Below, one piece after another: positions 27,837 through 50,606 of a DNA stretch of 64,000 nt (position 1 is its first letter; the number at the start of each line of letters is the position of its first letter). A program made the position numbers and the translations under genes. The notes below the pieces were generated by a model that worked only from the letters and a program-made list of their open reading frames with translations, was not told the DNA's origin and made no database searches. Source of the DNA: Bisporella sp. PMI_857 (lineage: Eukaryota; Ascomycota; Leotiomycetes; Helotiales; Helotiaceae); the NCBI GenBank assembly GCA_021307315.1, contig JAJSPD010000028.1, positions 1 to 64,000 on the forward strand. The letters run 5' to 3'.

Positions 27837-27845
27837 GGTTCAATG

Positions 27846-27899
27846 GTAAGCTCTTCCTGTGAAGATATATATTATTACTAGACCCTAATCCATCATCAG
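27846..27899 (+). other. GT-AG intron 1 of tRNA-Pro, between tRNA positions 9 and 10
   Basis: 54 nt with donor GTAAGC, branch-like CCTAATC (27884-27890) and acceptor CATCAG. Size and signals equal those of protein-gene introns in this window. Confidence 0.88.
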
Positions 27900-27911
27900 G
27901 TCTAGTGGTAC

Positions 27912-28086
27912 GTAAGTCAGCTTCTCCTAGTAACTTCCCCTGATCAAGAATGTTTTTACGGGTGATTTTCTCATGGGATATGCATATACTTCTACTGAAG
28001 AATCATCTCTTTGGACTGGATCCTTGAAGCACTGTTTGTATCTCAAAACGTTATATTAGCCAAGGTAACTAACTCTAAGATTGTAG
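27912..28086 (+). other. GT-AG intron 2 of tRNA-Pro, between D loop and D-stem 3' strand
   Basis: 175 nt with donor GTAAGT, a consensus ACTAAC branch site (28068-28073) and acceptor TTGTAG 13 nt later. It contains a T5 run at 27953-27957. No hidden tRNA or clear snoRNA box pair was recognised inside. Confidence 0.88.
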
Positions 28087-28130
28087 GATTCTCGCTTAGG
28101 GAAGACCTGAGTATAACTTGCGAGAGGCCC

Positions 28131-28185
28131 GTAAGTTTCCATCAGTCAAGAAACTTGTGTCGACATCAAGTAACATACAAAACAG
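28131..28185 (+). other. GT-AG intron 3 of tRNA-Pro, inside the T stem
   Basis: 55 nt with donor GTAAGT, branch-like AGTAAC (28169-28174) and acceptor AAACAG. It separates the first base of the T stem from the rest. Confidence 0.88.
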
Positions 28186-28219
28186 CGGGTTCGAATCCCG
28201 GTTGAACCCATATCGGTCA

Positions 28220-28225
28220 TTTTTT
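28220..28225 (+). terminator. Pol III-type T6 terminator of tRNA-Pro
   Basis: Six T residues start 11 nt after the discriminator base, the normal place for a Pol III stop. Confidence 0.7.
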
Positions 28226-47908: not shown

Positions 47909-50606
47909 TTTCTCAAGGCGAGTGATACACGACCTCCCCCCCTGTTTACTACACGACCTCCCCCCCCCTTGTAATTTTGGTTTTCTGCCACCAATCAGAC
48001 TATTTAGGTGGGGCGCTCACCAAAATAAGCTGATGACTTGAAGAAAAAATGAAGAACTGAATTGAATAGGATATGGCAAATATAGTATTAAAAGTCTAAA
48101 AAAATCGAGTTATTTGGCTTTCAAAATCGGTGGCGTATTGAGTTGCAGGTACTCGCTCTTCCTCTTGCAGCAGATTCCCTCCAGTTTGTATGTGATTTCG
48201 ATGATTTTGACTGCTATAAACAGAGCCGTAGACTGGTTGTAAAGAAGAGAAAGGGTTAGAAATAAGCAGATCTCGGTTTATAGGAAGCGTAGAAGGCTGA
48301 TTAGGGCATGTACTTCGAGTATGGCCAGTTGATTGGCACCCTTTGCAAGTTGCTTTATCATGCCCATAAGCAATACAAGCTGAGCAGTGCCGTAAAGGCT
48401 GTGTTATTTCTTCAAATTGGCTCAATATCCTTCCTGTTTGTGCAGTTCGTAGTCGATTGTATTGGCGTACGTGTGCTCGTTTTTCTGCTTCAGCAGATCG
48501 ACGTCGTTGATAGCTAATAGGATCAAGAATCGGAGTTGGAAATATAATAGGTTCAGCACCTGGAGAAGGTCGTAAATAGTGATAATGAGGGTGGAAATCG
48601 AGTGGCTGAATAGCTTGATTGTACTCAATTTTGAGCTTGATTGTATGCCAGCACGGTACGCCAAACGCAGAGGAGAAATTGCCGGTACAAATTGTATGAG
48701 AATCATCTGTTTGCGATTGTTGATTTTGTTGATAAATAGCGTATTGCTCTGATAGCATTTTCAGCCCAAAATTAGTGATATGGCTCACTACGCCATAGTA
48801 AAATGAGCTCGAAAGGTGTATAGGTGTCGACTGACGTTCTCTTGCTCTTTTCTGTTGTATTTTGATTAACTCATCTTCAATTGCACGCTGCGTACTCTCC
48901 CATACGGTTGTTAAATCACCCGTAGAAGTGCCTATCCAGCTTTTGAGAGTATGATGGCCTCCTTCAAGAGCCGACGTAGTACGTGCTCCTGCATGGAAAT
49001 ATCGATCTACCCAAGCGTGTACGACCTTCGATTTGTGCTTACTTAGCCATTGACCGATGCAGTAAGCAAGTGCTTCACGCTCTAAATCGAATTCAGCCAA
49101 TTCTTGGATCTCTTGCGGTGTTGAAGAAGCCACGCCTACGTGTGGATGGCCGTTGTTCCAATGAAAATCGTCTTTCCACTCTTGCAATATATCCTCATAT
49201 TCGCCCTCGGTTTTAGCTTGTACAACGTCTCGAAATCCTTTTAGAAACAGCTCCCAACGCTCTTGAGTTTCGAACTTGGCTTTACAGTGAAGAGCGACGT
49301 TTTTAAGAATGTGCCAAAAGCAAAGAACGACTTTAGTGCGAATAGCTGGAAAGTAACGTTCAAGAGCCGAAATCAAAGCAATATCGCAGTCAGTTGCAAG
49401 TATTGAAGGATACACAAATTGATCGAAAAGCTGACGAAATTGCAGTACAGCTTTGTTGTAACAATCTTCATTTTCTTGATCAAGAAAGCAAATCGCAACT
49501 GTAAACGTCTGATTCATACCGTCGATCCCCATAATATGAAGCAAAGGCATACCGAATTTGTTGGTTTTGTAAGTACAATCAAGCAATATTACTTCAGCGT
49601 TTTTGTTCAAATACTCTACTGATTTTGCGGCTGCAATGAACAGGAAATTGATATGCCCTTGATCATCTCTCTCCATAGCAAATACCACTTTCCCTTCAGC
49701 TTGTTGAGCTTCTAATTGCGCAATTAAAGCTTCAGGAGGTGACTTCCCACCTCGTTTAGTACGAGTCAATTCAGCGTTGATATTATAAATATCTCGAGGT
49801 ATGATTTCCAAAGAAGGATCTAGCTGACGCAAAGCAGCTATTGTCGATTTAGGAGGCACTCTAGCAAGTTGATGAGAAGCTACAATATCGAGGTGAGCTG
49901 AAGTTAATTGTCGATGAATATGAAAAGCGCTTGAACGTTCTGCAGGAGGGTGATTATGAACTGAGTATTTGGGATCTTCGCGGTATAAAAGCTCCCATAT
50001 TCCATCAGAGCGTTCCTTTACTTTAATAGAGAATAAGCACCCAGTTTTAGCTGTATTCCCTTCTCTTTTTCGGTGCTGACTATTTACTCCAGGTCGAAGA
50101 AAAGCAGCTTTTTTACAGCCTCCTCGTTGGCAATTCAACACTCGAATTATACGCCCTTTACGCCTCTCTGAATGACCAATTATAAAAGCATACAAAGCTT
50201 GTTTTGCATGTTGTTGCGTATGAGCAAAAAGGTCGTCGAATGAATTAAAACAGCCTGGTGGTGGAAGGGATAATGGTGCAATTGAAGCTTCAGCATTTGA
50301 CGAGGAGGAATCGATGTTTAAAGCTGCTGGAGGAGCCTGATTTTCGGTGGCAAATGTAGTCAATGACATATTGATCAACTGGAAAGATGCAACGACTAGC
50401 GATGGTAAGGTGGCGACAGTAAGGTGGTGACAGCGAGGTTAACAAATGTCTACAGCAGCTACGGTACAAAATTTTAGAGCCAACCCCTTACTACAGCTTG
50501 GTACCTTGGCTGCTCTCTACACCGCTTGCCTATTACAACAGGTGCAGGGGGGGGGAGGTCGTGTAGTAAACAGGGGGGGAGGTCGTGTATCACTCGCCTT
50601 TCTCAA
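47909..50606. mobile_element. Complete Mutator-like transposon with perfect 52-bp terminal inverted repeats
   Basis: The element spans 47917-50598 (2,682 bp) and is flanked by an 8-bp direct repeat TTTCTCAA (47909-47916 and 50599-50606). The terminal repeats 47917-47968 and 50547-50598 match perfectly over 52 bp. Each holds two copies of ACACGACCT followed by a C-run (7 then 9). It encodes one intact transposase. Identical ends, intact gene and clean target duplication point to a recent insertion. Confidence 0.93.
48096..50369 (-). CDS. MULE-type transposase
   Basis: A single uninterrupted frame of 757 aa, starting at the first ATG (the frame is open slightly further up, but without ATG). 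An N-terminal FAR1/WRKY-GCM1-like DNA-binding domain shows Cys/Cys/Cys/His-His spacing (NCQRGGCKK, TGCLFSI, VHNHPP). The MULE catalytic domain follows. It has the first Asp in LLDCTYKTNKFGMPLL, the second in ILATDCDIALI, a conserved CFWHILKN, and the final Glu in SALEGGHHTLKSW. A C-terminal zinc knuckle (CKGCQSTGHTRSTC) ends the conserved part. All three catalytic acids appear present, so activity is plausible. It moves DNA by cut and paste in the nucleus and should recognise the terminal repeats of its own element. Confidence 0.93.
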   Translation of the reverse strand: MSLTTFATENQAPPAALNIDSSSSNAEASIAPLSLPPPGCFNSFDDLFAHTQQHAKQALYAFIIGHSERRKGRIIRVLNCQRGGCKKAAFLRPGVNSQHRKREGNTAKTGCLFSIKVKERSDGIWELLYREDPKYSVHNHPPAERSSAFHIHRQLTSAHLDIVASHQLARVPPKSTIAALRQLDPSLEIIPRDIYNINAELTRTKRGGKSPPEALIAQLEAQQAEGKVVFAMERDDQGHINFLFIAAAKSVEYLNKNAEVILLDCTYKTNKFGMPLLHIMGIDGMNQTFTVAICFLDQENEDCYNKAVLQFRQLFDQFVYPSILATDCDIALISALERYFPAIRTKVVLCFWHILKNVALHCKAKFETQERWELFLKGFRDVVQAKTEGEYEDILQEWKDDFHWNNGHPHVGVASSTPQEIQELAEFDLEREALAYCIGQWLSKHKSKVVHAWVDRYFHAGARTTSALEGGHHTLKSWIGTSTGDLTTVWESTQRAIEDELIKIQQKRARERQSTPIHLSSSFYYGVVSHITNFGLKMLSEQYAIYQQNQQSQTDDSHTICTGNFSSAFGVPCWHTIKLKIEYNQAIQPLDFHPHYHYLRPSPGAEPIIFPTPILDPISYQRRRSAEAEKRAHVRQYNRLRTAQTGRILSQFEEITQPLRHCSACIAYGHDKATCKGCQSTGHTRSTCPNQPSTLPINRDLLISNPFSSLQPVYGSVYSSQNHRNHIQTGGNLLQEEERVPATQYATDFESQITRFF

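Follow-up and report, generated by a model that had tools for sequence, protein, structure and literature searches.

An mRNA-type intron in an RNA polymerase (Pol) III transcript is familiar from the U6 snRNA of fission yeast. Short spliceosomal introns have likewise been described in a structural RNA gene outside the realm of Pol II, namely the nuclear rDNA of ascomycete lichen fungi (57 nt in the case used), and yeast was able to remove one of these introns from a Pol I transcript, as set out in parts of PMC8527467, whose main text makes no mention of tRNA. In the pertinent passages of PMC4090602, PMC13149111, and PMC8450103, tRNA splicing is described without the spliceosome. The second of these sources, a 2026 review, restates that the process is spliceosome-independent; the third, the tRNAscan-SE 2.0 paper, limits eukaryotic tRNA genes to one intron; and the first, also a review, does not contain the word "spliceosome" in its main text. 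Several introns per tRNA gene, located in the D and T arms, have been described in Cyanidioschyzon and in nucleomorphs (passages in PMC4090602). Full-text searches of openly licensed PMC papers did not turn up any account of nuclear tRNA genes with spliceosomal introns, which is not proof of their absence.

Here, we describe what is very probably a nuclear tRNA-Pro(AGG) gene of Bisporella sp. PMI_857 that consists of four exons, with three GT-AG segments likely removed by the spliceosome and a 17-nt intron predicted to be removed by the tRNA endonuclease and ligase, and that is one of at least 15 split tRNA genes in this genome. It resides in a stretch of 64,000 nucleotides (hereafter the window), on contig C200 (638,208 bases) of the 55.6-Mb genome of this helotialean fungus, the arginyl-tRNA synthetase being 100% identical to the Bisporella sp. 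PMI_857 protein. The parts of the gene are as follows:

27837..27845, plus strand: exon 1, the 5' acceptor strand and positions 8-9, with 7/7 pairs to 28202-28208 (ARAGORN on the joined exons)
27846..27899, plus strand: GT-AG intron 1, 54 nt, at position 9/10, missing in the C208 paralogue
27900..27911, plus strand: exon 2, the D arm up to the first base of its 3' strand
27912..28086, plus strand: GT-AG intron 2, 175 nt, missing in the C208 paralogue
28087..28130, plus strand: exon 3, the remainder of the D stem, anticodon arm, variable loop, and first T-stem base, containing the canonical intron
28102..28118, plus strand: canonical 17-nt intron 3' of the anticodon, a predicted tRNA endonuclease substrate (ARAGORN i(37,17))
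28131..28185, plus strand: GT-AG intron 3, 55 nt, within the T stem (49/50), missing in the C208 paralogue
28186..28209, plus strand: exon 4, the remainder of the T arm (B box), 3' acceptor strand, and discriminator base
28220..28225, plus strand: T6 run, likely a Pol III terminator, judged from the sequence

The exons of 9, 12, 44, and 24 nt join into 89 nt, 17 of which belong to the canonical intron, and ARAGORN identifies this joined sequence as a tRNA-Pro(agg) with a 17-nt intron, just as a preliminary description of the locus had proposed; the coordinates and the segment lengths of 54, 175, 55, and 17 nt given there are also correct. The unjoined window, by comparison, yielded 0 tRNAs by ARAGORN and 0 Rfam families at the gathering threshold. 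The 17-nt segment lies one base 3' of the anticodon according to ARAGORN and matches the canonical eukaryotic intron at 37/38, which the three GT-AG introns do not. Pairing is complete in the acceptor, anticodon, and T stems, where the earlier claim of stems without mismatch holds; it does not extend to the D stem (GTCT/CGAT), where three pairs, one of them G-T, accompany an unpaired T-C, i.e., 3/4. Neither lost stem pairing nor lost invariant bases, the marks of a tRNA pseudogene, were found in the gene. Branch-like sites occur as described in intron 1 (CTAAT, with its A at 27888, 11 nt from the 3' splice site), intron 2 (CTAAC, A at 28072), and intron 3 (GTAAC, A at 28173, 12 nt from the 3' splice site), the last of which does not fit the YTRAY branch motif. 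A repeat (introner) origin was considered for intron 2 and rejected, the sole genome match to the intron being intron 2 itself. Elsewhere in the window, the minus strand of 48096-50438 contains a long single open frame that resembles a MULE-type transposase by eye.

The arrangement is not confined to this locus: 14 further split tRNA genes bring the curated set to 15 and the number of GT-AG introns in it to 18, answering a question that the preliminary description had left to be checked. A whole-genome covariance search, in which 63 of 2170 candidates were scored, gave 49 tRNA matches when the limit was set to E <= 0.001 and 60 when it was set to E <= 10, and the 11 weaker matches were all fetched; eight of these loci, representing seven distinct genes, are tRNA genes interrupted by GT-AG segments. 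A T-arm pattern search for one class returned 99 matches, and many of them must be due to chance, since the same pattern reversed returned 145; a second pattern was similarly weak in specificity (104 matches versus 125 reversed). From 70 fetched T-arm loci came Ile(TAT), His(GTG), Leu(CAA), and another Gln(TTG), and the set was completed by two Pro(TGG) genes (L084 and L161), Lys(TTT) (L082), and the window gene. With T arms fetched from one class, the count of 15 is a lower bound. Joined exons are called as tRNA by ARAGORN in 15/15 curated genes, with scores of 104-121, and the isotype assigned by the program differs in two of the 15, where His is read as Thr and Leu-CAA as Phe; the former was named by alignment to an intact copy and the latter by eye. 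Identical sequences on two contigs (L074/L075) were counted once, and L081/L089 are one place.

Several loci were excluded from the set. One is L080, a third Lys(CTT)-like gene cut by the end of contig C266, which has GTAAGT at the T-loop site of L071/L072 and a 9-nt insertion in the anticodon arm. Another is the second gene of L132/L154 (C241:419446, minus strand, and C263:759067, plus strand), a T arm about 1 kb from the split Arg(TCT) that may belong to a multi-intron or a degenerate gene. L073 and L077 were considered weak, and the Pro-like copy on C233, discussed below, is known from pattern positions only. The Gly(TCC)-like gene L048/L083 (G000:C230:974203-974259, minus strand) was likewise set aside; it has, by eye, a 23-nt duplication of the D arm (TGGTCTAATGGT repeated) that is not GT-AG, and its T-side sequence is common to C252:1059570 and C256:104874. 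The same tRNA genes (L074/L075, L133/L138), at a spacing of about 55 kb, occur on both C241 and C263 in opposite orientation, and so part of the assembly likely represents two haplotypes or a duplication. Among the remaining loci, L117, L118, L119, L124, and L145 are dispersed repeats, non-tRNA by eye, that share a tRNA-like T arm (AGGTTCGAATCCT or CCC) with similar sequence upstream of it, and this family is possibly a tRNA-derived element. Many copies of Glu (e.g., L113, L115, L120, L129, L135, and L136) and Asp (L123, L125, L133, and L134) genes contain short canonical introns of varying sequence, as judged by eye, and these genes are absent from the RF00005 covariance matches.

A template scan for single introns, open to every combination of boundary dinucleotides, was dropped as a test of significance: GT-AG did best with 9 loci (6 genes), but TG-AG and AG-CA gave 7 each, as boundaries slide and flexible loops tolerate many cuts. 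Its GT-AG matches were confined to the curated genes, with 0 among the T-arm loci judged to be non-tRNA by eye. A stricter version recovers 7/14 split genes besides that of the window and found nothing in the window itself, where just two T arms could be tested; little weight is placed on it with regard to specificity.

As a group, the introns of the set carry sequences that look like short introns of the U2 type, with GT-AG ends in 18/18, an extended 5' consensus, regular branch spacing, and a size like that of mRNA introns, window intron 2 being the outlier. Donors are GTAAG, GTGAG, or GTATG in 14/18, and the four weak donors read GTTAG, GTACG, GTTGG, and GTAAA. A YTRAY motif with its A positioned 10-14 nt before the intron end is found in 17/18, the exception being window intron 3 (GTAAC, 12 nt), while in 2000 shuffles of the intron cores, 1.3 of 18 on average and 6 at most had such a motif. 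Seventeen of the 18 introns are 49-56 nt in length, and the 175-nt intron 2 of the window gene is the outlier. Five mRNA introns of the window, placed exactly with the aid of two predicted Bisporella proteins, measure 51-73 nt, and four of the five have YTRAY 11-18 nt before their end; a sixth candidate of 41 nt was dropped, as the protein was still read exactly without it. The earlier statement that the sizes match those of the local mRNA introns is accordingly right for the 54- and 55-nt introns and wrong for the 175-nt one, which exceeds all five. Eleven of the 18 insertions are at or within the D arm, and the others occupy the variable region (2, Pro-TGG), variable arm (1, Leu-CAA), T stem (2, Pro-AGG and His), and T loop (2, Lys-CTT, where the B box is cut).

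In the set, constraint is seen in the exons and not in the introns. Joined exons of Lys(TTT) are identical to the intact gene at 75/75 positions, and those of two split Lys(CTT) genes at 74/74. Between the two split Lys(CTT) genes, the exons are identical (74/74) and the introns agree in 39/51 columns; between the two Pro(TGG) genes, the exons agree at 72/72 positions and the introns in 38/59 aligned columns, with GTGAGT, CTAAC, and AG kept. In His, the split gene has A-T at pair 7-66, the two halves of which lie in different exons, and the intact gene has T-A; this compensated pair is the sole difference outside the region of the anticodon-loop intron. The split Met(CAT) gene aligns to its intact copy with paired changes in the acceptor and T stems. 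In the split genes besides that of the window, where compared, exons equal those of intact genes or are altered in pairs, and no pseudogene-like loss of pairing or of invariant bases was found. Paralogues with and without the introns represent clean cases of intron gain or loss, with exon limits known almost to the base.

The window gene has relatives of its own on two other contigs. A Pro(AGG) paralogue at C208:103314-103395 (minus strand) has no interruption at any of the three junctions of the window gene: GTCTAGTGGTA is one base away from GATTCTCGCTTAGG, with 0 mismatches to a 28-nt pattern over junctions 1 and 2 and 2 mismatches to a 24-nt pattern over junction 3, and the spacing would accommodate a canonical intron that exceeds the one in the window gene by about 11 nt. 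Because this paralogue matches the joined sequence without interruption, the split pattern of the window gene is beyond chance. A copy without these introns also means that the window locus may be redundant or dispensable. The preliminary description had regarded an intact copy, combined with decay of this locus, as evidence against its reading; the intact copy exists on C208, at least across these junctions, but decay was not seen, and the acceptor, anticodon, and T stems remain fully paired. A third Pro(AGG)-like copy is located at C233:164774-164913 (minus strand, G000), where the distance from the D arm to the T-side motif, taken from pattern positions, is 105 nt versus 34 in the joined window gene; judging from this spacing, it is probably split once, by one intron of about 70 nt. 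A DNA search with the joined Pro(AGG) sequence gave 0 matches and also missed the window's own exons, and so it carries no weight.

Whether the fungus depends on splicing of tRNAs is best approached through isoacceptors for which every copy found is split, a phrase that refers to the 63 of 2170 candidates scored and the one T-arm class fetched. The codon CAA is readable by the UUG anticodon only. Two nuclear-type Gln(TTG) genes were found, both split, and a genome search that tolerated up to 3 mismatches found no contiguous Gln(TTG) and returned only Gln(CTG), at 2 mismatches, a recovery showing that the search works. A third Gln(TTG), L041, is on a 10.8-kb contig and looks mitochondrial. Similarly, both copies of Pro(TGG) found are split, with no intact copy among the matches listed, 100 out of 104 for the T-arm pattern. 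With a split structure in each of the two nuclear-type Gln(TTG) genes found, and with no contiguous version recovered, splicing is likely essential in this fungus, as far as can be told from its genome. We consider it probable that some of the tRNAs used for decoding, among them Gln(UUG) as the sole reader of CAA, are made only by way of the spliceosome; that tRNA supply and mRNA splicing would thereby share one machine; that single tRNAs such as Pro(AGG) would be processed successively by two unrelated splicing systems; and that the spliceosome would act on uncapped Pol III transcripts.

Other explanations must be weighed against this one. The split genes could be dead copies that have accumulated introns or junk, with translation resting on intact copies, and versions without these introns do exist for Pro(AGG), Lys(TTT), Lys(CTT), His, Met(CAT), and Leu(CAA); moreover, a passage of PMC4090602 has it that interrupted copies of this kind, occurring singly in eukaryotic nuclei, are taken to be pseudogenes. 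Dead copies would not be expected, however, to keep exons that are identical to intact genes or changed in compensating pairs while their introns diverge, nor to retain GT-AG ends in 18/18 and the branch motif in 17/18, and Gln(TTG) and Pro(TGG) are split in every copy found, all of which makes this explanation improbable. It is more improbable still that the segments are ectopic introns of the sort found in red algae and nucleomorphs, which the tRNA endonuclease excises. The bulge-helix-bulge recognized in such cases consists of a 4-bp central helix with a 3-nt bulge on each side, and a complete 4-bp central helix is present in 0/18; GT-AG ends and a branch motif at a fixed distance would also be unexpected of introns of this kind, even though the D- and T-arm locations are like those of the ectopic introns of these lineages (parts of PMC4090602). 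Self-splicing group I or II introns have a negligible probability, as about 50 nt is too short for either and the window has 0 Rfam matches at the gathering threshold; precedent for them is found in bacterial tRNA genes, where group I introns are known (part of PMC3984707). Introns of spliceosomal type alongside a tRNA endonuclease intron, as first proposed for this locus, fit best, given the 14 additional genes, the exon identity, the tight branch spacing, and the lack of bulge-helix-bulge motifs.

A further alternative concerns the polymerase, and here the evidence points in two directions. On the proposed route, Pol III would transcribe the gene from a TATA-like upstream region to the T-run; the spliceosome would excise the mRNA-type introns in the nucleus, whereupon the acceptor, D, and T arms could form; RNase P and RNase Z would trim the ends; and the endonuclease, measuring the folded tRNA, would remove the 37/38 intron together with the ligase. 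The spliceosome is placed ahead of end trimming and endonuclease cleavage because the D, T, and acceptor arms depend on its action in order to form. A run of T5 or longer occurs within 60 nt downstream of 15/15 split and 30/36 intact genes, versus 124/2132 60-mers of the window, and TATA-like sequence is located upstream of 9/15 split and 21/36 intact genes, versus 265/2132 60-mers (for L161, the flanks comprised 28 nt upstream and 14 nt downstream). This resemblance to intact genes favours Pol III. Speaking against Pol III, the introns displace or interrupt the promoter boxes, with the B box split in Lys(CTT), and TTTTT occurs inside two introns, i.e., window intron 2 (27953-27957) and the Lys(TTT) intron, where it could stop Pol III early. 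These same features would suit tRNAs made by Pol II within spliced noncoding transcripts and trimmed out later, their introns being ordinary ones, and capped Pol II transcripts are the usual substrate of the spliceosome. The downstream T-runs and upstream TATA-like sequence, which match those of intact tRNA genes, are at odds with this idea, and we regard it as rather unlikely.

If the spliceosomal reading is true, the spliceosome serves another class of essential RNA, probably one without a cap or a Pol II tail. Counts of tRNA genes in fungi of this sort would then be underestimates, and it would become possible to test directly whether spliceosome capacity and translation are linked. Among the known systems, the rDNA introns of lichen fungi differ in that they concern rRNA and Pol I (parts of PMC8527467), as opposed to the tRNAs considered here. 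The multiple tRNA introns of Cyanidioschyzon resemble the present ones in location, but bulge-helix-bulge motifs are critical there, as opposed to 0/18 in Bisporella, and the insertions of the Guillardia nucleomorph measure 3-24 nt, in contrast to 49-56 nt and 175 nt in the present set (both from passages in PMC4090602). A U6 search of the Bisporella genome gave five matches above the cut-off, each spanning the whole model, and three weaker ones below it. Finally, the U6 intron of fission yeast, which resembles the Bisporella introns in being of mRNA type and in lying inside a Pol III transcript, as the split tRNAs probably are, resides in one snRNA gene, whereas here a whole set of tRNA genes appears to be involved.
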